NCBI RefSeq assembly: GCF_000313135.1
Contig: NW_004457589.1
Location: 1-26,428 of the forward strand
DNA from: Acanthamoeba castellanii str. Neff
Taxonomy: Eukaryota; Discosea; Longamoebia; Acanthamoebidae
Direction of reading: 5' to 3'
Length of the DNA stretch: 26,428 bases
Within the stretch, counting starts at the first letter, position 1, and each line of letters begins with the position of its first letter. A program made the translations under genes and the position numbers. Below are positions 3,919 to 24,824 of this stretch, piece after piece. The notes under the pieces were generated by a model, which saw only the letters and a list, made by a program, of their open reading frames with translations, made no database searches and was not told where the DNA came from.

Positions 3919-6900
3919 CACACACAGAGAGAGAAGGTCGGAGCGGGTTACCTCGATGTACTTGTCGTCCTTGCCCTTGGCGGCGAGGAACATCTCGAGG
4001 TAGTTGGCGAACTCCTCCGACGGCGGGAAGGTCTGAAGGCAGCACCGCATGAGCTGCCAGCCCTTGGTCACCGACTGCGGCGACGGGTTCTCGGTCAGCT
4101 GCTTGATGATCTGGCAGTACACCTCGTTCCTGAGCTCCGGCGCCGCCAGGCACTGCTCCAGCAGGTCCTGCGCCAGCGCATTCGGGTACGGCAGCGGCCT
4201 AGTAACACAGACGCGCGCGCGAGTGAGTTCGCATTGAAGCTGAAGCGGGTGTGCGGCTGCTGGATTGGGTTTGATGTGTACCTGTCGCCCATGAAGCCGA
4301 GCACGTTCTTGAAGAGGCGGGTGGCGCTCTTGACGGCGAGCTGGTCCAGGGTGGTGAGCGAGGTGGGGATCGGGCTCTTGGTCCACTTGAACATGCCCAG
4401 CTTGAGGGCCTCCCTGCCCAGGAGCTTGGCCTTGGCAAAGTCCTCGGGCTTGCGCAGGCCGCCGAACTGCTCGAAGACGAACATCTTGCCGAACTGGCCG
4501 AAGAAGATCTCCTTGAGCTTGATGTTGAGTCGAATGGCCCTGGCCTGATCGCCCAGCCTGCAGCCAAGCAAGTTGAACGAACGTGTGAGTTTCCATGGGC
4601 GCCACATCGATGGCGCTGAGGCAACCGATTGTATTACCTGTTGGCAGTCTTGAGCTGCTCCTGGATGAACTTCTGCTCGTCGTTGGCCAGAACGTTCCTG
4701 ACCTCGTCGATCTGCGCGGTCTTGAGGTTGATCTCTTGCGCGCCCTGTTCAACCGCCCCGAGCAATCACCAGTCAACAACCACAAAACAACAACAACAAC
4801 AGCGATGATAGAGAGTGAAATGTATAAGTACCGCCCAGGCGCGCTCGAGGGGCTCCTTCTCCATGTAGTAGAGACCGACATCGGCGTCGTGGTTGATGAC
4901 GTAGATGCGGTCCAGAAGCTGCTGGGCGGTGGGCACCTCCTCGCGGGTGTAGGCGAAGGAGGCGGCGTCGGCGAGGGCCGTCTCCAGCTGGGCCTGGTCG
5001 ACGTTGGTGATACCCTCGCGCAGCAGGGCGCGCGCGTTGACGATCCTGTTCAACAGCTCGGCAGCTGCAACAGCAACACACCACCCGTCAGCATTCTTGT
5101 CATTGTCATGGTCATCGTTGTCGTAGTTCGTGCGGGGGTGGGCGTACCCTGCATCATCTCTGGTCGGTCGGTGATGCGCAGGGAGTCAGCCTGCTGGACG
5201 CCGTAGTCGAGCATCTCCTGGTCGTGGTCCTGGATGGCCTGCACCACCTTCTCGATCAGGTCGTTCACGGCCGTGTTGTGCGACAGCTCCTCGTAGGCCT
5301 CGTCTGTACGACGACACCGCACGACCGGTCAGCACAGCCGAAGTTGAAACATACGCTCGGCGTGCGTGCGTGCGTGCCAAAGGCGGGCGAGGGGTGCGTA
5401 CCGATCTCGGTCTTGGTCGACTGGGACATGCTGTTCTTGTTGAGGGTGGTGGTGGCCTTCTTCAGGGTCATGGACAGCGACTCGTAGTCGTCGGCGGCCA
5501 GGTGCTGTCGCACCTCGACGATGACCTTGGCCTCGTCAAGGGTGAGCCGGCCCTGCTCGGTGCGGAAGCCGAAGGACTCGGCGGCGTAGATGGCCGACCC
5601 GAGCGTGTGGGCGTCGATCGCGGCGTGGTCCCACGTCGTCTCGCTCGTGCGCATGGCCATGCCGACGGCCAGCGCGTTGAGGAGCTCCGCCACCAGCTCC
5701 TCCTCTCTGTAGATACGCTGCAGCTCCTGCCGGCCGGCCGCCAGCGTCGGCTCGCTCTCCTCGAGTCCGATCTGCTCGGCCCTCGCGATCGCCGCCTCGA
5801 GGTCGACGCGCACGGCGCCATCCACGGCCTGCTTGAGCTGCTCCCTGGTCTCAACGCGCTGGGCGATCATGTACTTGATCTGCTGACCGGTCTCCACGAG
5901 CGGGGTCGAGTAGTTGATGCTCTCGGCTTCGGTGAGCACCGCGCACAGCTGGGCGTAGAGCGGCTCCACTTGCAGGTAGGTCTGATGATAAATACCGATA
6001 CAGACGAGTGAGCCGTGTGTGTGCGCGCGCGCGCGTATGCGTGCGTGCGTGTACCTTGTGGTTGGGCGGGGCTCCGATGTAGTCAGTGAGCTTCTTGGTG
6101 ATTTCCATCTCCTTCAAGATGACGCTCCTGAGCTCCTTGCAGTCGCGGATGAGCTTCATGTCGAACTCGATGTCCTTGGCGGCATCGATGGCCTGCTCCA
6201 GCACGCTGAGCGAGCGCGACTTGATGGCGTTGAGCAGCACCGGCTTGATGGCGCGCATCCTCTTGTAAAGGCGCCTGGCGAACATCCGCCGCACGCCGGC
6301 CTGAATCTGGATGGTGACTCGCTCCACCGCAATGTTGCGCTGCAGCTCGAGACCCCGCTGCTCCGGCGCTCTGTACAGCACCCTCGTCTTACCCACTGCA
6401 CACCAACCGCACCCCAGTGAGTTTCCAACACCACACACACACACACACACACACCCCGACGTTCGTACCCTGAACCTTGGACCAGTCGCCCTTCATGCTC
6501 TTGAGGAGGAGGTCGCAGTTCTGCTTCAGGTTGGGGCCGTATCTCTTGTGGATGTCCTTGACGAGGAAACCATACCGCTTGAGGAAGTTCTCGTGCGAGT
6601 AGCGGAACGGGTAACCGGTCTGACGGATGCGGACGGCCTCGAACACACCGGCGTAGCGGAGCTGCTGCAGCGACATGAAGCCGTGGAAGAGATCGGCCTG
6701 CTTCTCCGAGTTGGGCTTGATGCACCTGTGGCGACGACATAGCTAATGCATTAGCACACGACACACAAACAAGGCTGAAGACACGACACGACACGCGACA
6801 CGCGACACACGCATGGAGAAGAGCTAGACCTGATGTAGTGGGGCTCGGTGGCGTTGAGGGCGGTCATGAGGCTGTCGAGTTGCTTCCTGAACTGACCACC

Positions 6901-9583
6901 GAGGGTCACCTTGGAGGTCTTCTGGTCGCCCTCCGAGGGCGGGAAGAGGACGTTCATCAGCTTCTGCTTGCTGCTCTCCGAAAGGACCAGCAGATCCTTC
7001 TGCAGGGTGTCCTTGTTCTTCTCGAGCATGCCTGGCGACGCGATATCGACGAGCCTTGTTAGCTGTGGTGTGCTAGCACAAGAATGTGGGAGGGAAGATG
7101 TACCTGTGGAGTCGTAGATGACGTCACCGGCGTAGTGCTTGATGATGAAGTCGGTCCTGCTGGTCCTCACCTCCTCGTAGTTGGCGTGCTTCTTGCCGCC
7201 GTGGGTCTGGTTGGCCTTGATGAAGAAGGTGGCGTCGCTGGACTTGGGGATGGAGATCTGCTCATCGAGGACGAGCATGAGGCCCTGCGGCTGCTTCTTC
7301 TCGATCAGGTCCAGCACCGGCTGGTTGTCGATGAAGGTGATGTGCTCGTATTTGACCTCCTCGGACTGGTACAGCTTCTCCTCGAGCTTGAACGTGTACT
7401 GGTTGAAGTGCTGCTGCAGCTTCTCGTTGGTGAAGTTGATGCAGAGCTGCTCGAAGCTGTTCTTGTCGAAGATCTCGAAACCGAAGATGTCGAGCACACC
7501 GATGGTGGTGGTCTTGGCGCCCTTTTGCGGCTCCATCGACTCGTTAATCTTCTTCACGAGCCAATCGAACAGCTTGGAATAGATGGCCTGTGGAGAAAGG
7601 TGGTGTTAGCAATCAGCTCTGCGTTGCGCTGCGCTGCGTTGCGCTTACCTTGGCCAGGGCGTTGGTCGCGTCGGTGGCCTGGACGGGCGTGAGAGGAATG
7701 CGGGTGGGATCGCAGCCCTTGATCTCCATCAGCTTGCTGGTCACGTTCTGCTCCAGGGTGGCCGGATCCACCTTGAGCAGCGTCGCGACGATCTTCACCT
7801 CCTCCCTGTTGGCCACGGTGGAGGTCTCCACGTTCTTGCCCTGGCCCGACACGAACTCGAAGTTGCCCAAGTGCAAGATGGCCGAGATCAGCTCCATGCA
7901 GTTGTTGATGTCGTCTTCCGAGAACCTGTCACAGTACACAAGTGTTGGTTAGCAAGTCGAGATGATTGAAGTGATGAGGACTGCACGCGTACCCGAGCTT
8001 GCCCATGGCAAAGAACACTTCCTCGAATTCCTTGACGTCGTCGACTCCCTCGACGTCAATGCAGCCCGACTGGCTGAGGAACTTGAAGGATTCGGGCGGG
8101 CCGGAGACGAACCACCTCCGCCTCTGCTCCGCGGTGGCGCCCTTGACCAGCTGGTAGAAGATGTGGAAGTTACGCTCGCCCTTGATCTGGTACACGACGC
8201 GCGACTTCTCGAGCAGATAGTTGATCGTCGAGGCACCGCAGATGGAGCCCTTCTGATCGAAGTGGATCTCCACCCACTTACCGAAACGCGAGGAGTTGTT
8301 GTTGCGCAGCGTTTTGGCGTTACCTGATCGATGTGAAGAAGAGGAGGCATGAGGCCATGTACGAAGATAGAATGTGGAATGTGATGACGCATACCGAACG
8401 ATTCGAGAATGGGATTGGCGAGCAGAATGTTCTGTTCCACTCCATTGGTCGAGCCAGCCAACTCGGCGAAGTAGGTCAAGCACTGCTTGGTGCACTCGGT
8501 CTTACCAGCGCCAGACTCGCCGGAGATCAAGATGGACTGCGCGCCATACACGCATCGTTGTCAACATTCGATCATCTGAGCTTCACGCGCAGAGCCAGGC
8601 AGGCGAAGTGGTGTGGTATGCACCTGATTCATACGATTGTCGATCATGGCCCTGTAGGCGTCATCGGCGATGTTGTAGGTGTGCGGAGGCATTTCCTTGG
8701 TACCCTTGTGCATGTACTGGTCCATCACCGTGGGGGTGTACAGCGGCAGACGCTTGAAGGGATTCACAGAGATCAAGATCGTACCAATGTTGGTCTGCAC
8801 ACCGCGAGGAGGAAGGCAATCGATTAAAAATCAACAAAAAAGAAAATAATAAATTTAATATAATTTAATTTATGAGAAATTAATTAATATTTGAAATAGA
8901 ATGACAATCAATCGCGCAAAAGAAGCCCGGTAACCGATGAAGGGGAGGCGTACATAGATTTGATCGTTCTTGAACCTCTTCCTCAAGTTGTGGACGATCA
9001 TAGCCTCGTTAATGTCGTCCATTTGCACGAGATCGTCCACACTCTTGTCCAGTACAGACTTGGCGACCTTGGCCAGCTGTGAGGGCGCACACGCCACGCT
9101 CAAGGACTGGTGTGTTGTGCATGACACCACGCAAAGGCCATGAGTGAGTGAGCGAGCACAACCAAAAAGCAGAGAGCCGTAATCAACGTTGTGATAATCC
9201 GCGCTACTCAAAATGAATCAAGGGCTCCTCACCTCGCCCTCTTCGGTCTGGCAGTAGGAGGTGCCACCGTAGTCCTCTTGAATGAACTTGCCTGTGATGT
9301 AGCCATGGACAGGGTGGGGAATCCACACGAACTCAGCCTGAGGGCATTTTAATGATAGAAATTGGCGATTAGCAAAAAAAACAAAAAATGCATGAGAATG
9401 CGCTCGACTTGGGCAGGCAACGGGGATGAGGGGAAGGGAGCTGGAAGAAGGGAGGCTTACGTTGTAATCATGGCTCTGCAAAGAGCTGGGAGGGTCCCAA
9501 GATGTCTCTCCCGACACTTCATTGTAGTAGTAGGCGTTGCCCTCAGCAGTGAAGTACTGCTTCCAACCATCTACTGACGCCAT
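3027..9583 (-). CDS. Class IV myosin heavy chain (WW-motor-IQ-MyTH4-SH3)
   Basis: Twenty exons on the minus strand: 9583-9461, 9337-9233, 9076-8954, 8794-8624, 8536-8395, 8323-7993, 7925-7649, 7587-7104, 7031-6830, 6725-6469, 6395-6055, 5981-5402, 5303-5148, 5064-4832, 4744-4638, 4557-4282, 4198-3952, 3803-3726, 3627-3233 and 3147-3027. All phases agree; the product is 1582 residues. Domains: WW at about 3-35 ([21 protein letters not shown]); motor about 75-745 with P-loop GESGAGKT (180-187), switch I NNNSSRFG (229-236), switch II DIFGFE (457-462) and actin-interface RCIKPN; one IQ near 765-785; a long helical tail about 785-1200; MyTH4 about 1245-1390 ([24 protein letters not shown]); Gln/Gly/Tyr-rich linker; C-terminal SH3 about 1525-1578 ending NYTRPI. 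This matches the Acanthamoeba high-molecular-weight myosin, the founder of class IV. It is an ATP-driven actin motor, cortical or vesicular location inferred. The TEDS position, 16 residues before NALAK, is Asp (about 404), so heavy-chain phosphorylation there is not expected. Confidence 0.95.
3869..3919. repeat. (GCAC)n tetranucleotide repeat in myosin intron
   Basis: About 12 perfect GCAC/CGCA units fill the intron between the exons at 3952 and 3803, following a CACGCCG-type stretch. Confidence 0.95.
6432..6454. repeat. (CA)n dinucleotide repeat in myosin intron
   Basis: Eleven or so CA units lie in the intron 6396-6468, between the converter-region exon and the IQ-containing exon of the myosin gene. 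Confidence 0.9.
8795..8953 (-). other. AT-rich intron 3 of the myosin gene
   Basis: This intron is 159 bp. Its centre (8818-8890) is almost pure A/T (AATAATAAATTTAATATAAT and similar), in sharp contrast to the GC-rich flanking exons. Donor GTACGC and acceptor TGTGCAG on the minus strand. No open frame of interest is seen. Confidence 0.7.
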
Positions 9584-10368: not shown

Positions 10369-12724
10369 ATGGAGGGAGGGAATGGAAAGGACAACCAGGA
10401 GGAGTTCGAGTTGGCTCGGGCCAACTTTGAAAAGACGTCGTCCGTCCTCGAGAAGCTCATCAAATCCATCGCCAAAATCTCTGACTCATTCAAGGGTTCG
10501 CAAAGCTTAATCCCCCCTTGCGCGATTGATCCCCCCCCGGCTCATACCACACGTGCCCTGTGCGCAGTGTCGATGTGGGCCGTGATCGACCTGTCGGAAG
10601 TGATGAAAGAATTCCTTGGGGCCGGTCCCTCCATCGAGCTCGAGGACTCCATGAACGAATACATGGTTCCTTCCTTCCCTTTGCGCTGCACTTTTGTCTC
10701 GGCAGCAACAATCTTTTTGAGCGTCGCTCTTCGCTCTTTTTGGCTGTCGCTTTCGTTCTCTTCTTCGCTTTCGCGTTCGCTTTCTCTCAATTTTTTTCAT
10801 GCACACCTCACTTGCGGGCTTCTTTTGCGGTCCGCGACTTCGACTTGCTCACCCCTGCGCTTCACTTCATGTGACACAGAAAGAGGTCGCCGATCAGGTG
10901 AACAGCATGAATGTGTTCTACGAACAGCACAAGGCGTTTCGAGTGCGTGTCTCCTCGCTGCCCCTATCCTTTCTTCGCCGTACAGGATCCCATTCATCCG
11001 CCTCACACCCACAACACACAGACGAAGATCGAGCACCGCGAGAAGCTCAACCAACAAAACAAAACCGCTAGCAACGCCAATGGAGTGAAGGTGACACCCG
11101 CCTTCTTAATCGAGCGTGGCGAAGCGGCTCTCTCACAATCAATTGATGTTTGTTATGTGTGCGGCATATAGACTCGTGCGGCGCTGGACGAGTTCGACAA
11201 GCAGCTGAAGGACGACTTGGTGAGCCACCACTACTCCCGATACCGGCGAGTCGCTCCTGAGCTTCACAAGGTTTGCTCCAATACGTGCCTTGAGGTGCAA
11301 ACCAGGAGGGGCGTCGAGTTGACGCCGCCTCTCTCTCTCTCTCTCTCGCACTCTCTCCAGTATGTCCAAACGCAGATGAAGCTCTTCAGCCGCATGAACG
11401 AAAGCCTGAGCGGAATGAGCGAGTTCTTGGCGAAGAAGTGCAGAGGTGAGGAGGACTTGGATTGGTACGGCGCTCCATACATTCTCTGCATGTTTGGCAT
11501 TCCTAGCTCACCCGTATTGCCCCACCTACAGGACGGTGGGCAGGAATTCGCTCAAGAAGAGCTCGCGGCGAGACAAGAGCCTGGGAAACTCCGGCGGCGC
11601 GGTGCCCACCACCTCGCTATCGTCCTCGCGCTCGGCCACGTCTCACTCCCCGCCGACGCCCTCGTCGCCCGTGCCTCCGCCTCGTGTGCGCCCGGGGACC
11701 GTGAGCGCCCGCGACCCGCCGCCCGTTCCGCCCAAGAACCGGTCGGCGACGACGGCCAGCCGCAGCCACATCGGTGGCAAGACGGCCACCGTCCCGTCGT
11801 CGCTCGCGAAGATCTACCGTCGGTCGGTGTCGCAGCAGAACCTGGTGAACAAGAAGCTGAGCGAGCTCGGCGACGACGAGCCAGACAAGGAGGAGCGATC
11901 ACACTCGGTGGACGACGGCGAGAAAATCGGCGACCTCCGCAGCATGCTCGTAGACTCTGGCGTCTCTTCTTTGTCAAGTGCGTACCCATTGATGGTCGTG
12001 TGTGTCGTGTGTGATCGTCATCACTTACCGTCATCATCTTCATGCAGGCTCAGAGAAGAAAGTGACAATTCCTGCACCCTCATATCCGCGTCCTCAAGGC
12101 GTCGCGCCTCCTCCATCGCGGCCCGTCTCCACACAAGGTTCGCAACTTCTCCCACATAGGAGACCGTAACGTTTTCGTGAGACTCGCCAGCCACCAACTC
12201 AGTATGCTGACTCGCTCACTTCCCATTCGCAGTGACCAAGGAGGACGTTGAGGCCGAGCGCAAGAAGGACCCGACCAAGTTCAGGCGGCAACCGCCGCCG
12301 CCCGGTGGCCCGAGGGGTCCTCCCACCTCCGGTCCCTTCGGCCTCCCCTCTTCGCCTTCGCTCTCTTCGAGTCTCATCTCCTCGGTCGCCATTCCCTCGC
12401 TATCCGGCACGGCATCGGCCCAGTCGTCGGAGGAGCACGGCGGCGGCTCGCCGCCGGTGTCCGCCTCTCCGCCGCCCATTCCGTCGGCGCTCAACAAACC
12501 AAAGAACACGCTCTCGCACGCCCTGGCAAGTTCAGCTGATTCCGATTGGGCGCTCCAGCCTAGGTTCGTCCCCCAATCCACTGTCGCTTTCGTTCTTCTG
12601 GCCTGGCCTCACACCACCCGTGTGACTGTGCAGAAAGGCCAAGGGCACTACCGGAGTGCAGCCCACGGTGGTGGCCGAGAGGCGGCAGTACTGGAAGTCC
12701 TTGGACGGCAGGCCCACCCTCTAG
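10369..12724 (+). CDS. BAR-like domain protein with proline-rich C-terminus
   Basis: Ten exons: 10369-10495, 10568-10665, 10880-10942, 11022-11090, 11172-11270, 11361-11464, 11532-11977, 12048-12137, 12233-12563 and 12634-12724, giving 505 residues. The start is the first ATG in this frame (MEGGNGKDNQEEFELA). Residues about 10-180 are a long amphipathic helical region without Gly/Pro, with the layout of BAR/AH-superfamily proteins: VFYEQHKAFRTKIEHREKL, a second helix rich in Asp/Lys, then LHKYVQTQMKLFSRMNESL. Such domains dimerise and bind curved membrane. The rest is low-complexity Ser/Pro with class II SH3 ligands (PPPVPPK at about 249-255, also PSSPVPPPR) and a Pro-rich block PPPPGGPRGPP. 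The protein ends WKSLDGRPTL. Exon 6 must use the GTACGG donor at 11465: the nearer GTGAGG at 11446 breaks the frame. The family call rests on pattern only. Confidence 0.6.
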
Positions 12725-14933: not shown

Positions 14934-17900
14934 ATGGCAGACCAAACAACGAAAGGAGGCCAGCAGCGACTGAAAATCGTGTGCATTGGCGAAGCTCGCA
15001 CGTCCTACAAATCGGAAATCTTGCGGCGCTACCTGCGCACCAATGCGGCCCTCAAGCAAAAGCTCTTCACCGCCGAGGTCGGCGCGTCTGCGACGGCGGC
15101 TGCACCGACGCTCACCAATACGACCGATCCGCACAAGAACGTGGTCTTCGAAGGCGACGTGGCGGCGGCAGAGGGGAGTGCCAAGGCCGTCTCCGTGGCG
15201 GTCGAGATCGTCGATGCCGCACCAGAAGATCACAACCGTCTGTTTGCCTACCCCAGGACCGACCTCTTCCTCATCTTCTTCTCCATCGACGACCACGAAG
15301 CCCAGAAGCACCTTCTCACCCGCGTACGTAGGATCTCACCCTATCATTATTCTTGTGTTTTCTGTTTTCTGTTTTTACAATTGATAATGCGAAGATTATT
15401 TCCTTACTTTTAAATCAAAATAATCAAGTATGTGCTTGCAAGCACATTTTCAAGATATATTACATTGCTTCTATATTGCTATTGATTTGACGTTGCGTTT
15501 TTTTCAATTTTAACTTGGTGCTCTACCCCTATAGTGGATTCCCGAGCTGTCGCAGCACTGTCCTGGCACTCCCTACGGCCTCGTGTGCACGAGCACAGTC
15601 CTGCGCACCGCGCGCTCCAATCACATGACCCTCGTTCAGGTGCGTTCTTTCTCTCCCATCCATGCACCTCTGCACCCGCGCGTCGACCCAACACAATTAC
15701 TCACTTGTAACGTGCACAGGGCAAGGAATTGGCCAAGAAGCTGAAGGCCCACCGATACTGGGAGCTCGGCTACGGCGCCAAGCGCAGGGCGATGACACTC
15801 ACGCCGCAGATGATCGCGCAGCACCAGCAGCAGCAACAGGCGGAGGGCGAGGAGCCCGATGGAGGCGTGGAGGCGACCAAGGACGAGAAGGCGCTCGATG
15901 AGGAGATCCGCGTGCTCTTCGCCGAAGCGACGGCGTCGGTGGCGTTCCCGTCGTCGAAGGAGGCCAAGGACCTCAACAAGCGCAAGAAGATGATGGAGAA
16001 GGTGAAGAACGAAGTGTCGACGGCCGTGAGCGAGGGCAAGACGGAGATCTCCTTCCGCAAGCGCGGACTGGACAACACCCACGTCCCCAAGAACATGGGC
16101 AAGTACATGAAGGAGGTCAAGAAGCTGGTGCTGAGCGACAACAAGCTCTTCTTCTTCCCGATGGCCGTGCTCGACATGGTCAACCTCCACACGCTCGAGC
16201 TCAAGAACAACGCGCTCACGCACCTCCCCAAGGAGATCACCCGCCTCACCAACCTCAAGAAGTTCGACCTCGAGAACAACCAGCTCACCTCCCTGCCAGG
16301 TTTCTCCCTCCCTCACCAATCGCGCACAGTCTTCGGAGACTGACCGCTGAGCGCGCGCGTGTGTGTGTGTCCAACTAGGCGAGATGGGCAGCATGACGCA
16401 GCTGGAGGAGCTGAAGCTCAAGGGCAACTTCCTCGACGGCTTCCTGCCGCCGGAGGCATTGGGCAACATGACCCGCGGCATCCTCGCCTACCTGAGGGAT
16501 CTGCACAAGGGCGCCGAGCGCTGCTACCGGATGAAGCTGATGTTCGTGGGCAAGGAGGCCGCGGGCAAGTCCTCCCTCTCCTACTACCTCATGAACAACA
16601 AGCGCATCGAAAAGGCCCCGCTCTCCACCGACGGCATCGACATCAACAACTGGGACATCCCCGTCCCCGAGTTTGCCACCGAGTTTGCCGGTTCGTTCTC
16701 TCTTTCTCTCTCTCTCTTCTCTCTTTCAGTGTCGCTTATCGCTTTCGTTCTTTTTGTCTGCAGAAATCGCGGACAAGCTGATGAAGGACAACTGGGGCAA
16801 CAAGCCCGTCACCTTTGCCGTGTGGGATTTTGCCGGCCAGGAGGTCTACTACAGCACTCATCAGTTCTACCTGTCTCGGCGGTCGCTCTACCTCTGCGTC
16901 TTCGATCTCACCGATCCCGACATCACCTCTGGTACCCCTCCTCTCTCCCTGGGCTTCGTTCTTTCGCGACGAATGGTTAGTCGCTTACCTTTTGCCTTCG
17001 CTCTTCTGCAGGCAACTTCCATCGCGTGTCGTATTGGCTGCAGAGCATCAACGCCAAGGCCAAGGGCGCCCCGATCATCTGCGTCGGCACCAAGCAGGAC
17101 CTGTGCTCGCCCTCGCAGATCAACGAGACCTTCCTCAAGATGCAGGACCAGTTCTCCAGTTTCGGTGTCAAGGAGTTCATGCCCGTTAGCTGCATCTCCG
17201 GCAAGGGCATCAAGGAGCTCAAGATGGTCATCATGAAGGCCGCCCTCAAGCAGCGGACCATGGGAGAGCAGATCCCCAAGATCTATCTCGAGCTGGAGAG
17301 GATGGTCGAGCGCAAGAGGGTCGAGCTGGCCTACCTGAAGAAGCCGCCCACCGTCTACTTCGAGGAGTTCCGGGTCATGGCCATGAACATTCCCAAGCTC
17401 GAAGACGAGGTAGGCACACATGCAGCTACTAACACATGCACCGCACGCATCACGCGCACCATCGTCGCTGCGACTCACACTTATCTTTCCTTCGCCTTTT
17501 ACAGGAGGAGTTGATTCGTGCCATGGAGTTCTTGAACGAGCTGGGTTCGCTCGTGTACTTCCGCAAGGCCGGCCTCTCCGACATCGTCATCCTGGACCCG
17601 AGGTGGCTCACCGAAGTGATGGTACATTGTAGCGCCGCGCCCGTGCGTTGTCTGCTAGAGGAGAGCCCAGGACCCTGGGCTAACCTCTTCAATTTTCGTG
17701 TTGCCGCCTCACCCTTCAGGCCACGGTGGTGTCTTCGAAGACGATGCTCGAGAAGGGCATCCTTCAACACAAGTTCCTCTTCAACCACATCTGGAAGGGC
17801 GACCAATATCCCGCCTACCTCCACCCTCACCTCCTCCTGCTCCTTGGTGCGTACATGGTTTGATCTTTATTATTATTATTCTTGTTATTACAATTATTGC

Positions 17901-18399
17901 CGATTATTACTTATTCACAAATACGACCAAATGTTGAAAATTAATTGATGTTTGTCTTTGGTTGTGCAGAGAAATTCCAGATCACGTTCCGCCTGCGACG
18001 GAAGCGTATCGTGTTGCGTGCGGTGGAGGACGTCACCGGCCGCACCCAGAACCAGCTCTCGTTCAAGGTGGGCGACAAGATCATGCTCCTCGAGAAGCCC
18101 AAGGTCGGCCGCTGGTGGAAGGGCATGCACAACGGACAGACCGGCTACTTCCAGGCCAACCACGTGGAGGACACCGGCCAGCCGCCCGAGTTCACCCTCG
18201 AGGACGAGTCGCTGGTGCCGTGCCTGCTCACGCCCGAGCCCCCGCCCGGCCTCCTCGAGAAGGAATGGCCCCTGGCCGACGAGACGGCGCCGCTGCAGAT
18301 CGGCCGCGTGTGGCGCTTCAGCTTCCTTCCGCTGCCCTTCTTCCCCCAGGTCATCGTTCGCCTGCTCCACAGCGGCGAGAGTCGGTTCGTGCTAGCTCC

Positions 18400-18463
<64 letters not shown>

Positions 18464-21400
18464 ATTTGCTGTGACTCACCACGCACACGCGCGCCGCGCA
18501 GGTTGCACTGGAAGCATGGCATGGTGGTGGAGAACATTCGAGGTGATGCGTGGAGCTTGATTCAGGTGGACCACGGCCAGGGCACCCTCTCCGTCCACGT
18601 CCGATCGGCCAGCCCGACGGCCCTCCAAGGTACGCCGCTCATCTCAGTGCGGCTGCGGTGGTCGGTGGACGTTATTGTTGATGCATTGTATGTTATGAAT
18701 CTTAGACATGATCTCGTCGGTCGAGGAGGAAGTGGACATCCTGCGCGATTGGTTTGGCGTCACCTTCACCGAAATCAAGGTCCCATGCACCCACTGCATC
18801 AGGGAGAAAAAGGTACCTACCCTTCTTGCTTGCCCACTTCTTTTCTGCGCCTCCGAGTAGATGGGCTAACCTACGCTCTCTCTATACTCCTTTAGAAGGA
18901 CGTATATTTATTCACCCTCGATGAGTGCGAGTTGGCGTCGGCCGAGGACAGGAAAGTGCTCATCTGTCAGAGCGTACGTTCATTCTCGAGAGATGAGAGC
19001 TGCAAGCTAATGGGTTTGAGTGATCGACCATACACTTGAACTCACCAACTCGCCAAACTCGTACAGGGCGTCATTGGTCGAATTGAGGTGCCGCTGACCG
19101 AGATCGTGCCCGACATCGCCATGGCGCAGTACAAGAAGGTCGCCTTCTCGAAAATCGAAATGGGTCCAGTCATCGGCCAGGGTAACTCTCGCTGACCGAA
19201 ATTCTTTCCCCCCTTCCCGCGGTCTTGTTCCGTTGACCGCTCACTTGCCCATCCTCGCTACGACACACACACACACACCACAACACACCGTACTAGGTGC
19301 CTATGCGGATGTATATAAGGCCACGTACGATGGCAAGACGGTGGCTGTAAAGAAACTCAACAACGCCAAGGGCTTCAAGGAATTCCGCGCGGAGGTCAAG
19401 TTCATGAGCGTGGTGGATCACCCTAACATTGTGCTCCTCAAGGGCATCTGCCTCAACCCACCCTGTATCATAACCGAATTCATGGAGCTCGGTACGGACC
19501 CGACACCAGCTCACCAGCTGGCACCAGCACTGAACTTTTTTTATTTTCATTTTCATTCAGGAAACCTCCACTCGTACCTGGACGACGCGAACAACAAGCT
19601 GACGTGGCAGCAGAGCATCAAGATCGCCGAGGATGTGGCCAAGGGCATGCACTTCCTCCACTCCCAGTCCCCCGCGCGAATCCACCGCGACCTCAAGTCC
19701 CCCAACATCCTGGTACGTCGCCCGCAGTCCTCATTTCGCGTTTCGTTCTTTGTCATCTGGGTTCTCTCTGACCTGTTCTTACGGATCTCCTTCTTTCTTT
19801 CGATCGCAACAGCTTTGCCTGGACAGCGAAGGCCGCATCATGGCGAAGGTGGCCGATTTCGGTACGGCGCGCTCGCTGGCACCCACCATTGCCGGCCGCA
19901 CGGTCGACAACCCCATCTGGCTCGCGCCCGAGGTCATGCGAAACGAGGAATACACTGAAAAGGTACCCTCTCTCTATAGTGTCATTCACTTTCCTGGCGT
20001 CTCAAGCCATCAGAATTGCTGACTGCTGCAAATGTCTCAGGCGGACGTGTACTCGTACGGTATCATCCTGTACGAGATCTACACGCGCAAGTTCCCGTTC
20101 GGCAAGAAGACCCGCTTCCAGATCGAGCTCGAGGTCGTCGACGGCAAGCGGCCGGACCTCCCCGACGATTGCCCGCCGTTCTACATGTGCGCGGCTCTCT
20201 TCTGTGTGTGTGTGTGTGTGTGTGTGCGTGTGTGTGTGTGTGTCATACTCAAGCTCGATCACACAGGGACCTGACGACATCGTGTTGGTCGGGCATCCCG
20301 TCGGAGCGGCCGGCCTTCCAGACGGTGCTGGAGAAGCTCAAGTCGTCCCTGCCCGTGACCTATCGCGCCCTCGCGCCGTTCAGTGCCGAGACGCCGATCA
20401 GCGTGCGCGTGGACGTGGGCGACGTGGTCTACCTCGAGCCCGACAGGAAGAAGCCTCTCAGCAGCGCCGACGTCATCAGCGTCAAGTGCACCCACCGCGC
20501 GCAGACCATCTTCCTCCCCTCGGACTTCCTGCAGACCCACTGCGAGTGTGTGCCCTTCGAGGACTACTTCTTCAACACCTACCAGCAGCTGCAGACCGCC
20601 CCGCTGGTGCGGACGTCGTCGGCGACTATGCCCTCGTCCCCACTGTCGTCTACCTCCTCGCCCATCTCCTCGCTGAACTCGAGCACCGACAAGAGCAGGT
20701 ACACATATCACATTCTATATATGCTCTATATTTCTATGTTGTGTCTATATGTCTATATGTACAGCAGCATAGCAGTATGTACGGTATCCAGGCAAGCTTC
20801 GGATTCTATCCAGGTCTATATATCCGTATATACATCGATCTATATATATATAGGTGTCGCCTGAGTGGCTCATCACTTGAACGCCGGCATGGGCCACAGT
20901 CCGCTGCTGCCCTCGGCGTCGGTCTCGCTCCCGCCACCGCTCGTGCTGCCGCCACTCGGCAGCATGAACACGACCGACGGCGCGGTGGAGCTCTTGCTGA
21001 GCCCGCTGTCGAACACCGGCGAGCGGAGCGTGAGCTTCATCACCAGCGCCGGGCCGATCCTCCTCGGCAAGAAGGCCGCCGCGGTCCTCCTCTCGCCTCG
21101 CGTACTCCACTACGAGCGAGTCGAGCGCATCACCGCCGAACGCGAGCGGAGCGGCGGCTCCGCTGGCGGCCTCTTCGGCCTCCACAAGATGGAGCAGGAC
21201 AAGAGGTACACCATGAGCGCATACGCGTGCGGCTATCCATCCATAAGCCGACTAACCACTGACCCACTGCTAATTTTCTCTCCCTCTTCTCGAGCGTGTG
21301 TGAGTGATTGCGTGCGTGCGGGAGTGGTGGTGTCTCATCATTTTATAAGAGCTATATTTTATTAAGATAAATATTGCTCGCATGCTGCCTACTGACGTGG

Positions 21401-23009
21401 ACTTGTCCGGGTGACAGCAGGTCGGCGTCGTACCGGCTGATGCAGAAGAACAACATCCCCAAGAAGCCGGAGGACAAGGATCGTGAAGGGCGCGAGCGCG
21501 AGCTCAAGGAGGAGCAGGACGACGAGACCAAGTCGCGCCTCGACGACGTGTCCGAGGAGACCATTCTCGCCGAGTACGGCTTCCACCGGATCATCGACGA
21601 AGAGGAACAGGTACCAGCGCTGCCCCCTCTCAAGCATTCTTGACATTCTTGTGCAGCTGGGCTCATGTGTCTTGTGGCGCGTGACAGCCGAACACGATAC
21701 TGCCCCACTTTGCCAAGCGGCTGGACAACAACCCGACGCTGCTCAACCCGCACGAGGTGTTGATCGCGGTGCAGCTCATCTTCCTGCCGGAGCGCAACCT
21801 CGTTCTGTCGCTCAAGAAGCAGGGCGCCGACAACCTCGGCCAGGGAATCACCAAGGCCATCACCGAATCGGGCAAGATCTGCGCTCCGCCCGGCGAGGAC
21901 GCCAAAGAGAGGTCAGTCTCCGTTTTCGTTTTTCGTTTTTGTATTTGTTTTCGTTCGTGTGCTGACGACGTCTGTTATTTTTGTGCAGAGGGTGGTTGGT
22001 CGGAACGGTGCAGCAGATCGGTGCTGCGCTCCAGGGCAAGCTCGACATCAAGGAGGGCGACAGAGTCATCCCGATCTACTCGCTCTCGTCCATTCCCATC
22101 AAGCTCACCTCCATCGACAACGTCATGGGTACGCACGCAGCACGCGAGTGTGCGAACACAATCGTGCAGTGGCTCATCACCACCTCCGGGGGGTTCTGTG
22201 TGGCGTGACCACAGGCGAGCGGTTCATTTTTGCCAAGGGCACCGCCGTGGCTTTCGCGCGCTCCACGTTCGCGCTGCCCCCGCCCGAGTTCGAGATGGAC
22301 GTGGCCGCCGTGGCGGTCGACGTCGCTTCGTGTCTCTCCCAGATCGAGCGTGCTGCCACGACGGGCACCATGGTGATCATCGGACTGGGCAAGCTGGGCC
22401 TCACGGCTCTGTGCTTCCTCCGCAAGGTGGTCCCCGCGGCCAGGATCATCGCCATCGACAAGGACGACGCCCGTCTTGATGCCGCTCGCGCCCTCAAGAA
22501 GGCCGACATTGTGCAGAAGATGTACGATATCAATCACCTCGTGCGTGTGCTGCGCGTGCTGCGCGTCAGGCTCATCGTTTTGTGAACGAACGTGTGTCGA
22601 ACAGAAACGCGCGGAACTCGGCCGAGGTGCTGTCCTTCGTGCGACAGTCGAGCAGGGGCGGAGCCGACGTCGTGCTCCACTGCACCAGGGCCGTGGGCCT
22701 CGAGTCGTCCGCCATCCTCTCGGCCAAGCGGGGCGGCTCGGTGCTCTTCTGCCGGCAGAACGCCGACCCCGGCCGAGTGTCGCTCCTGGCGCCCAGCAAC
22801 GACGTCAGCCTCGTGACCACTGGTACTCACCCTGACCTCTCCCCCTTAGCCTCTCTTGCTTCGACTGATGATGATTGTTGTTGTTGTGTTGCACGGAAGG
22901 TGGAGCGGTGTCGAACGCTCACGTGCAACGCGTGTTTGAGCTGCTGCGAGCGGAGATGGAGCTGCGAAAGCACTTCATCGCCTATGCCCGTTCCACAGTC
23001 GTCAAATGA
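14934..23009 (+). CDS. Roco-type multidomain kinase fused to a KDD-like dehydrogenase
   Basis: Modelled exons: 14934-15323, 15535-15639, 15720-16299, 16379-16690, 16764-16931, 17012-17409, 17505-17621, 17720-17846, 17970-18384, 18502-18629, 18706-18812, 18896-18973, 19067-19181, 19297-19491, 19561-19712, 19813-19962, 20041-20186, 20267-20698, 20900-21205, 21421-21610, 21688-21911, 21989-22128, 22215-22521, 22605-22822 and 22900-23009; 1869 residues, in phase throughout. Domains: degenerate Rho-like fold about 1-190; LRRs about 297-405; Roc with P-loop GKEAAGKSS (416-424), DFAGQ (484-488) and TKQD (545-548); COR about 600-960 with an inserted SH3 (746-800); kinase about 1003-1255 with Gly-rich loop GQGAYADVY, Lys 1032, HRD 1120-1122, DFG 1144-1146 and LAPEVM; SH3-like domain about 1258-1318; Ser/Thr-Pro linker; KDD-like enzyme about 1525-1869. 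Roco proteins (LRRK2 relatives) use GTP-controlled dimerisation of Roc-COR to set kinase output. The kinase keeps all catalytic residues and is of TKL type. The join at 20698/20900 is least secure. Confidence 0.75.
15430..15447. repeat. Perfect 18-bp palindrome in intron 1 of the Roco kinase gene
   Basis: ATGTGCTTGCAAGCACAT reads the same on both strands. It sits in the unusually long (211 bp), AT-rich first intron (15324-15534). Confidence 0.85.
18401..18463. repeat. (CAT)21 trinucleotide repeat in intron
   Basis: Twenty-one perfect CAT units occupy the intron 18385-18501 inside the COR-coding part of the kinase gene. If the intron were retained it would read as poly-His or poly-Ser-Ser in two frames; the splice signals GTTCGT and CGCGCAG and the reading phase support removal. 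Confidence 0.95.
20203..20243. repeat. (TG)n repeat in kinase-domain intron
   Basis: About 20 TG units, with one CG interruption, fill the intron 20187-20266 that splits the C-lobe of the kinase. A donor GTGCGC and acceptor ACACAG flank it. Confidence 0.9.
20699..20899 (+). other. AT-rich intron 18 (or intergenic gap) between kinase and KDD-like module
   Basis: The donor at 20699 is GTACAC, typical for this genome. The proposed acceptor CCACAG at 20894-20899 lacks a strong pyrimidine tract. A second acceptor CGGCAG at 20957-20962 gives the same phase. The interval is AT-rich and ends in a TATATATATATAG run (about 20841-20853), 36 bp before an in-frame ATG at 20889. That could be a core promoter if the KDD-like part is a separate gene. 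Without splicing, the kinase frame stops at TGA 20862-20864, inside this region. Confidence 0.5.
20900..23009 (+). other. KDD-like dehydrogenase module (part of the preceding CDS as modelled)
   Basis: The module covers protein residues about 1525-1869, close to the full length of L-erythro-3,5-diaminohexanoate dehydrogenase. Family-like features are YGFHRIIDE at its start, a charged linker before it, GWLVGTVQQIG, the sequence DRVIPIYSLSSIPIKL, a Rossmann motif GLGKLG (1715-1720) with Asp 1740 after strand 2 (favouring NAD), GGADVVLHC, and an ending HVQRVFELLRAEMELRKHF. KDD oxidises 3,5-diaminohexanoate to 5-amino-3-oxohexanoate in bacterial lysine fermentation. It belongs to the medium-chain dehydrogenase fold but lacks the usual zinc ligands, and none is seen here. 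The upstream exon 20900-21205 (Ser/Pro-rich, then VLHYERVERI) has no recognised family. Confidence 0.65.
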
Positions 23010-23143: not shown

Positions 23144-24824
23144 ATGGAAACCAAGCCTCAATTCATTGGTAACGCCTCTCATCTTCACAGAATTTTGTAC
23201 TCGCGAAGCGTGAGGCACTGACAAAACTCGGCTGTGGAGCAGATATTGGTGCCAATCTAACTGGTACGAATAAAATCGTGAATCTTGATTATAATTCTGC
23301 GCAGCATGATTTGATAGACTGGCTCTGCTCGCAGATGAATCCTTTCGTGGCCACTACAACGGCAAGCAGTACCATCCAGATGACTTCGAGGCCGTACGGC
23401 GCCTTCCCGCCACAGCAGTTCAGCTCTTCGCCGCATGCATCACTCTGAGGTGTGGTTGCCGTGGCACAGGTGCTCGGGCGAGCCTGGGAAGCAGGTGTGG
23501 AGCGGGTGATGGTCACCGCTGGCCGGCTGCAGGAAGTCAAAGAGGCCCTGCAGCTCGTCGACAAGCACGGTACGGAACACATCAACAATCACCGCACACA
23601 CGCCACACACGTGCGGCACCAACACTTGCACATCTGACATGATTGTACAGATCGACTTTACACGACTGTGGGCGTGCACCCGACGCGCTGCGATGAGTTC
23701 GAGGCGTGGGAAGGCGGCGCGGAGGACTACCTCCAGCAGCTCCTGGCGCTTGCTCTCCCCGAGGGGAAGCCGCACCCCAAGATCGTCGCCGTGGGCGAAT
23801 TCGGACTCGGTACGCGCAGTGCAATCGATGTGCGACGCGCATGTTTTTTGACTCTTCGCGAGCTCTCGCCGTAGACTACGACCGGCTGCAGTTCTGCTCC
23901 AAGGAAACGCAGCTCAAGTACTTCGAGGCTCAGTTCGAGCTGGTGGAGAAGACCGGCCTGCCGCTCTTCCTGCACATGCGCAACGCTTGCGATGACTTTA
24001 TCGAAGTCGTGAAGCGGAACCGCCACAAGTTCTCGTACGCGCAACTACATCCACATCAGCAGCCTCGGCTCTACAGTCATGCTCTCTCTCGCCGCTCACA
24101 AAATCGCGCGCTGATGTGCAGGAATGGTGTGGTCCACTCGTTCACTGGCACGATGGAGGAGATGCAGGCCCTAGTGGCGTTGGATCTCTTCATCGGCATT
24201 AACGGTTGTTCGCTCAAGGTACAAGCCTGCGAGCGGGTGGTGTGGGCTATGTGCGTGTGCCGCGCTCTCTCACCCAGATGAACTCCACGCAGACCAAGGA
24301 GAACCTGGACGTGGTTTGCGCCATCCCCGAAGACCGAATAATGATCGAAACAGGTGCACAGCCTCCTCCCTCGTATTCATGCACCCGGCCTCAACAGCTC
24401 AACCACACGCTTGTGCTGACGATCCGTGCCCGAACGGCACCACCTCAGATGCGCCCTACTGCGACATCCGAAACACGCACGCCGGCGCAAAGCTGGTGAG
24501 CACCAAGTGGCCGAGCGTGGTACTTGCTTCCGTCTCACTGGTGTTCAGGCAAGGCAGTCTCTTACGCCCTGAATTGCAATTCAGGACCGGAAGAAACACG
24601 ACACCAACAAGATGGTGAAGGGACGCAACGAACCCTGTGCAGTCAGGTGCGTGATTGTGCCGGTCTGCGCTTTGGTGTGGGTCGACCCACAGGGCGTCAC
24701 TCACGTTTCGTGTGGCGACTATCCTAGACAGGTGATGGAGGTCGTGGCTGGCGCGCGAGGCGTAGGGTTGGAGGAGCTGGCTGCCAAGATCCACACCAAC
24801 ACCAGGCGCGTGTTCTTTCCCTGA
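23144..24824 (+). CDS. TatD-family metal-dependent deoxyribonuclease (TATDN1-type)
   Basis: Eleven exons: 23144-23168, 23243-23263, 23335-23393, 23470-23569, 23651-23809, 23875-24034, 24122-24218, 24278-24353, 24449-24519, 24585-24646 and 24728-24824; 308 residues, the usual TATDN1 length. The start METKPQF is the only ATG giving the conserved FIDIGANLTD. Metal and active-site residues are in place: His 78 (VGVHPTRC), Glu 118 (VGEFGLDYDR), His 155 (LFLHMRN), His 180 (VVHSFTG) and Asp 233 (IETDAPYC). The eukaryotic signature RNTHAGAKL and the end RVFFP are also present. TatD enzymes form a TIM-barrel amidohydrolase-like fold and act as 3'-5' exonuclease or AP endonuclease in repair and apoptotic DNA degradation. 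Exon 2 is only 21 nt. The last acceptor must be TAG at 24727: the CAG four bases later puts a TGA in frame. Confidence 0.93.

Follow-up and report, generated by a model that had tools for sequence, protein, structure and literature searches.

The 26,428-nucleotide stretch of Acanthamoeba castellanii str. Neff contig NW_004457589.1 analyzed here (referred to as the window) carries at 14934-23009, on the plus strand, a gene for a Roco kinase whose protein very probably continues into a domain related to L-erythro-3,5-diaminohexanoate dehydrogenase (KDD), an enzyme of lysine breakdown in bacteria. When the splice sites of 25 exons were joined by hand, they gave a coding sequence of 5613 nt with a single terminal stop and 1870 residues; exons 1-18 (14934-20698) account for 1371 stop-free residues, and seven further exons complete the open reading frame to 23009. 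Along the protein lie a degenerate Rho-like domain, LRR, Roc, COR-A, SH3, COR-B, kinase, a linker, and a KDD-like dehydrogenase domain. A preliminary description of this DNA had proposed 25 exons joining in phase, with the kinase and the dehydrogenase on one strand in compatible phase, and our rebuilt chain agrees with its coordinates and with its range of residues. With acceptor 21420 instead, the protein would be one residue shorter. An early exon model with donor 22541 and acceptor 22626 was dropped, as a second copy of the gene and a protein fragment (P0001), both described below, indicate donor 22522 and acceptor 22604. An older model of the KDD part, differing in a few residues, was used in the PDB search and in the protein searches of the amoeba's own genome and its contig C67, whereas the Pfam and NCBIfam searches of the KDD part were rerun with the revised exon model.

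Exons 1-2 (14934-15639) encode the Rho-like domain (approximately residues 36-187), which runs slightly into exon 3. This N terminus resembles the structures of Cdc42, Rac, and RhoA (164 distinct sequences in the PDB at E ≤ 0.01, best E 1e-11) and matches the Ras family PF00071 with E 1.4e-5. Because the position of its P-loop reads, by eye, GEARTSYKS, without the GK, the domain is probably a pseudo-GTPase. Exons 3-4 (15720-16690) contain a linker, the LRRs (approximately residues 312-377; LRR_8 at 320-375, E 1.7e-10 in Pfam), and the start of Roc with its P-loop GKEAAGKS. The Roc GTPase is encoded by exons 4-6 (16379-17409; residues 411-548) and scores 84 bits against PF08477, where the cut-off is 27. 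In exons 6-12 (17012-18973), COR-A (residues 607-743; PF16095, 82.4 bits, cut-off 35.3) is followed by COR-B (residues 843-990; PF25497, 72.4 bits, cut-off 27), the end of which extends into exon 13. Inserted between the two is an SH3 domain (PF07653, SH3_2, 33.2 bits) at residues 749-799, encoded within 17970-18384, and we know of no other Roco protein with an SH3 domain at this place. The intron that follows, 18385-18501, contains a long (CAT)n run at 18401-18463. Exons 13-18 (19067-20698) encode the kinase (residues 1006-1252; PF07714, PK_Tyr_Ser-Thr, 199 bits) with the motifs VAVKK, HRDLKSPN, and DFG, then a tail that appears SH3-like by eye and has no Pfam match at E ≤ 1, and the start of a Ser/Pro-rich linker.

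The order of the Pfam matches and the resemblance to Cdc42, Rac, and RhoA thus bear out the arrangement first proposed, a degenerate Rho-like N terminus ahead of LRR-Roc-COR-kinase. Roc is followed by COR, which places the protein among the Roco proteins, and the kinase lies C-terminal of COR with the LRRs ahead of Roc, as in group 2 of the Roco kinases. No WD40 family, the mark of LRRK1 and LRRK2, was matched in either part of the protein at E ≤ 0.001 in Pfam.

The C-terminal domain begins in exon 20 (21418-21610), which encodes the end of the linker and the start of the KDD-like sequence (AEYGFHR...), and fills exons 21-25 (21688-21911, 21989-22128, 22215-22521, 22605-22822, and 22900-23009), including the motif GLGKLG, up to the stop. 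The best PDB match of these 346 residues (1525-1870) is the bacterial KDD structure 7dl3 with E 2.3e-20, in a full-length alignment over chain residues 7-346; the best alcohol dehydrogenase reaches E 7e-5. Likewise, a profile search of the tail against the KDD family NF052381 of NCBIfam gave 73.6 bits and E 1.8e-20 (72.6 bits with the older exon model), although the curated cut-off of 200 bits is not reached. Two bacterial KDDs used for comparison score 235.1 and 258.5 bits. Because 73.6 bits stands against a cut-off of 200, the tail is a relative of KDD but not a member of the family by the curated standard. For its N-terminal half, the KDD model is the sole NCBIfam match at E ≤ 0.01. The Rossmann half weakly resembles medium-chain alcohol dehydrogenases; its matches to their models fall well short of the cut-offs (TIGR02818 is the best, with E 2.4e-8), and Pfam finds only subthreshold Rossmann matches in the tail (PF00107, 22.2 bits). 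In both the PDB and NCBIfam, every other match trails KDD by many orders of magnitude in E, which indicates descent from KDD.

To examine the chemistry of the tail, we aligned it with 27 bacterial KDDs picked from 80 loci and took as invariant those columns identical in all 27. The tail is 25-31% identical to these proteins and keeps 35 of the 70 invariant columns, namely 21 of 41 in the N-terminal half, 6 of 8 in the Rossmann region, and 8 of 21 in the C-terminal half. The Rossmann motif GxGKxG is retained as GLGKLG, with G1716, G1718, K1719, and G1721 matching 27/27 bacterial KDDs. In the pocket motifs, however, the substrate side is remodeled: NIDSASF reads FLPERNL, TGSGGM reads GEDA...GW (one G kept), LTPL reads SIPI (P kept), GAPAQ reads SCLSQ (Q kept), YFFSMATSF reads LFCRQNADP (one F kept), and GAE reads LAP (A kept). 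In the numbering of the 7dl3 alignment, the glutamate of this last motif is Glu310; it is thereby replaced by proline, and the second copy of the gene has a gap there. According to a review (PMC9902596), the KDD variant E310G has a significantly affected substrate scope.

A fused protein with an active KDD, or a related amine or alcohol dehydrogenase, could couple lysine or another catabolite to the GTPase or kinase output. The full-length fold match and the retained Rossmann glycine motif are in keeping with such an enzyme. However, half of the bacterial invariants (35/70) are changed, including most of IDSASF, TGSGGM, and MATSF and the Glu310 position, and the family score remains far from its cut-off. 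In addition, of the enzymes that accompany KDD in lysine fermentation, neither lysine 5,6-aminomutase alpha (PF09043) nor KCE (PF05853) was matched in the amoeba's own genome, in an exon-by-exon search that is less sensitive for genes split by introns. The PF09043 search found its target in 2/3 KDD-bearing bacterial genomes and in 0/14 control genomes, and the PF05853 search had a match in 1/14 control genomes. Taken together, an active enzyme seems unlikely. Of the KDD-like NAD enzyme first proposed, the relation to KDD stands, while a working KDD is not supported. We infer that the tail would no longer catalyze the KDD reaction, which is the oxidative deamination of L-erythro-3,5-diaminohexanoate; activity on another substrate is possible.

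The two parts of the protein meet at a junction intron of 201 nt (20699-20899) with a strong donor and a weak in-phase acceptor. Splice sites were scored with a matrix built from the 23 other introns, and acceptors were compared leave-one-out. The donor closing the kinase exon at 20699 scores 9.05 and ranks 9th among 1593 GTs of the plus strand. Within 20860-21210, only 20899 (1.94) and 20962 (1.42) are in-phase acceptors scoring above 0, and seven of the other 23 acceptors reach no more than 1.94. Further upstream, acceptors 20764 (7.82), 20767, and 20791 keep the phase and lead into the TGA at 20862-20864, whereas 20772, 20813, and 20853 (9.57, the best) are out of phase with the KDD part. 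The intron is followed by exon 19 (20900-21205; 306 nt), which encodes linker and is supported by codon usage: exons 18 and 19, both outside the codon training set, score 0.46 and 0.45 per codon, and the two other frames of exon 19 score -1.02 and -0.76. All 25 exons, 23 of which are also in the training set, score at least -0.03 per codon, with a GC content at third codon positions (GC3) of 0.69-0.96. When exon 19 is skipped, the frame remains open and a protein of 1768 residues results. Since acceptor 20899 and the skipping of exon 19 are both in phase, two splice routes yield the fusion.

The strong donor 20699 with its several competing acceptors, together with an exon 19 whose skipping preserves the frame, also raises the prospect that the kinase is made both without the tail, ending at the stop at 20862, and with it. 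The last exon of the tailless form, 20766-20861, looks noncoding (-0.73 per codon, GC3 0.41), which speaks against alternative splicing, and we give it a low likelihood. An optional tail would in any case be compatible with a single gene encoding both parts.

Further evidence on the junction comes from a second copy of the gene. In the amoeba's own genome (38.4 Mb, 250 contigs), a protein query gave eight matches: one at C67:17277-17507 (minus strand) and the other seven within the window. A Roc match at C67:22164-22292 lies near the C67 match on the same strand. The KDD-like match thus occurs at two places only with this one query; the NF052381 search of the genome found one window exon only, and the paralog surfaced via the protein query. 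A tblastn search with the whole protein against C67:14001-30000 returned Rho-like, LRR, Roc, COR, kinase, and KDD in the same order as in the window gene. The Rho-like domain is 30% identical, the pieces covering residues 302-1231 (LRR-Roc-COR-kinase) 52-77%, the kinase end 35%, and the KDD domain 33-35%. The kinase tail and the linker can also be aligned between the two genes, weakly in the low-complexity part.

A single exon of the paralog, at 11627-12023 on the reverse complement (rc; C67:18374-17978), connects the post-kinase tail (QYYVSRHVVVE) with the start of the KDD domain (SEFGLARVLEGP...RLDN). In each of three stretches of this exon, the KDD frame scores best (-0.05, -0.65, and 0.08 per codon), although the lead is narrow in the middle one (-0.65 versus -0.83 and -1.31). 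Because the KDD frame scores best and does not contain the exon's only ATG (rc 11645), it is not likely that this exon begins a gene by itself. The N-terminal half of the paralog's KDD domain scores 62.9 bits against NF052381 (E 3.6e-17), and no other NCBIfam model matches it at E ≤ 0.01. One KDD intron is common to both genes, at the same place by eye (QKI/NARN in the window gene, QMYA/DAKEW in the paralog) and in the same phase 2. Within the paralog's kinase domain, a GC donor reads best inside the conserved part, with alternative GTs at 10976 and 10978, and GC-donor introns appear to occur in this gene.

The tail was also compared with protein fragments from other sources. The KDD domain alone matched three fragments (7998 candidates scored; source codes lgn and jgi), none of them fused. 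P0001 is 96% identical and keeps LFCRQNADPGRVSLLAPSN, and P0002 repeats part of it. P0003 (source code lgn), which is similar across exon 20, is 71% identical over the compared part and keeps FLPERNL and APPGED; its table entry carries PF26370.1. P0001 and P0003 can be read as containing translated introns. As both keep motifs of the amoeba type, the motifs appear to be maintained rather than decaying. P0003 was also the sole match of a 325-residue query across the junction, with 7993 candidates scored. The whole protein, together with region 1370-1870, found no fusion elsewhere at E ≤ 0.001 among 7985 candidates. Only candidates sharing exact five-residue words with the query are scored in these searches, which makes the junction and fusion searches weak evidence of absence.

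Several observations weigh against a continuous kinase-KDD protein. The in-phase acceptor 20899 is weak, as its score is equaled or exceeded by 24% of all AGs in the window and exceeded by six AGs within 20764-20853, and a TA run at 20841-20852 with an ATG at 20889 in the KDD frame could mark a separate gene start. In the paralog, the DNA is 73% GC, so that open frames are cheap, and the frame step from kinase tail to linker requires a GC-AG intron at rc 11529-11626 or a GT-AG intron at 11463-11626. Moreover, the tail exon has two ATGs in the frame of the tail, at rc 11372 and 11384, and these offer a possible start. The Rossmann loop of the paralog, in this assembly, reads GCGWG followed by two stops and resumes in another frame, which may come from decay or from a misassembled run of Gs. 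Finally, P0003 in its entirety, translated introns included, has no match in Pfam (E ≤ 1) or NCBIfam (E ≤ 0.01).

Overall, the fusion is well supported, mainly because a second Roco gene has the same domain order and a linker/KDD exon without an in-frame ATG. We therefore consider it highly probable that the Roco kinase and the KDD-like domain are fused, presumably through one shared transcript. Two neighboring genes, a Roco kinase ending at TGA 20862 and a separate KDD-like gene from ATG 20889, would account for the TA run and in-frame ATG directly upstream of the KDD coding signal and for the stronger acceptor 20764, and a TatD-like exon less than 1 kb downstream indicates that genes here can be close, but this arrangement is quite improbable, as its last kinase exon is unlike the 25 exons in codon score and GC3, only 24 nt would separate stop from start, and the paralog has the same domain order across an exon lacking an in-frame ATG.

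Compared with known proteins, the window protein shares the LRR-Roc-COR-kinase core, with its Roc P-loop and kinase motifs, with LRRK1, LRRK2, and the Dictyostelium Roco kinases of group 2. However, it adds the Rho-like N terminus and the SH3 domain between COR-A and COR-B, and it carries the KDD-like tail where LRRK1 and LRRK2 have a C-terminal WD40 domain (PMC6337361). Similarly, it aligns over the full length with bacterial KDD (PDB 7dl0, 7dl1, and 7dl3) and shares its N-terminal half and Rossmann core, whereas the pocket motifs and the Glu310 position are replaced and the domain is joined to a kinase. Unlike the Rossmann half, which alcohol dehydrogenases weakly resemble, the N-terminal half matches the KDD model only.

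Neither "dehydrogenase" nor "Acanthamoeba" occurs in the main text of a Roco review (PMC6337361) or of a survey of Roco domain architectures (PMC11378527). No fusion of a Roco or LRRK protein with a dehydrogenase appeared by title among the literature matches listed, none of the titles listed for diaminohexanoate dehydrogenase concerned a Roco protein, and no paper was found that joins Acanthamoeba with diaminohexanoate; these searches covered mostly open papers, without supplementary tables. As far as seen, the Roco kinase with a KDD-like tail is a new domain architecture in a known family. The preliminary description knew of no Roco protein with a KDD-like domain, and no report to the contrary was found.

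Many LRR kinases occur in A. castellanii, and Roco proteins are among them (PMC7003747). One profilin ORF of the genome is identical over all 125 residues to a profilin II of solved structure (PDB 1f2k), an A. castellanii protein. In the same genome, COR-A gave 35 matches in approximately 22 separate places (our own grouping), and the amoeba therefore has a large Roco family. Elsewhere in the window, exons of a myosin head (PF00063) lie at 6754-7948 on the minus strand, and an exon of a TatD-like DNase (PF01026) lies downstream of the Roco gene at 23697-24278, on the same strand.

The explanation we prefer, and consider somewhat better than even, is one Roco-kinase gene in which a KDD-derived, probably NAD(H)-binding tail would serve regulation in place of catalysis; once the fusion is granted, a regulatory role appears likely. 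Its C terminus is a dehydrogenase fold of two parts, akin to bacterial KDD. The tail would probably bind NAD(H) as a cofactor, or another such ligand, while no longer turning over the KDD substrate, and it might form dimers. Cofactor occupancy could then alter the packing of the tail on the kinase/COR dimer and thereby change kinase output, so that the tail would act on the Roc-COR-kinase core from the position where LRRK1 and LRRK2 carry WD40. More speculatively, an Acanthamoeba Roco lineage may have taken in a bacterial-type KDD as a sensor of NAD(H) or a metabolite, with the redox state directly gating Roco signaling. A sensor role, already raised in the preliminary description, accords with the sequence, yet we propose this reading only tentatively.

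Roco kinases draw attention mostly through one member, the Parkinson's kinase LRRK2, and how the Roc-COR-kinase core is controlled by the surrounding modules is a live question. If the proposal is correct, a fold of a bacterial catabolic enzyme would have been recruited into eukaryotic signaling, and a Roco kinase with a cofactor-binding C-terminal module would offer a tractable comparison, with a small domain and simple ligand-binding assays.

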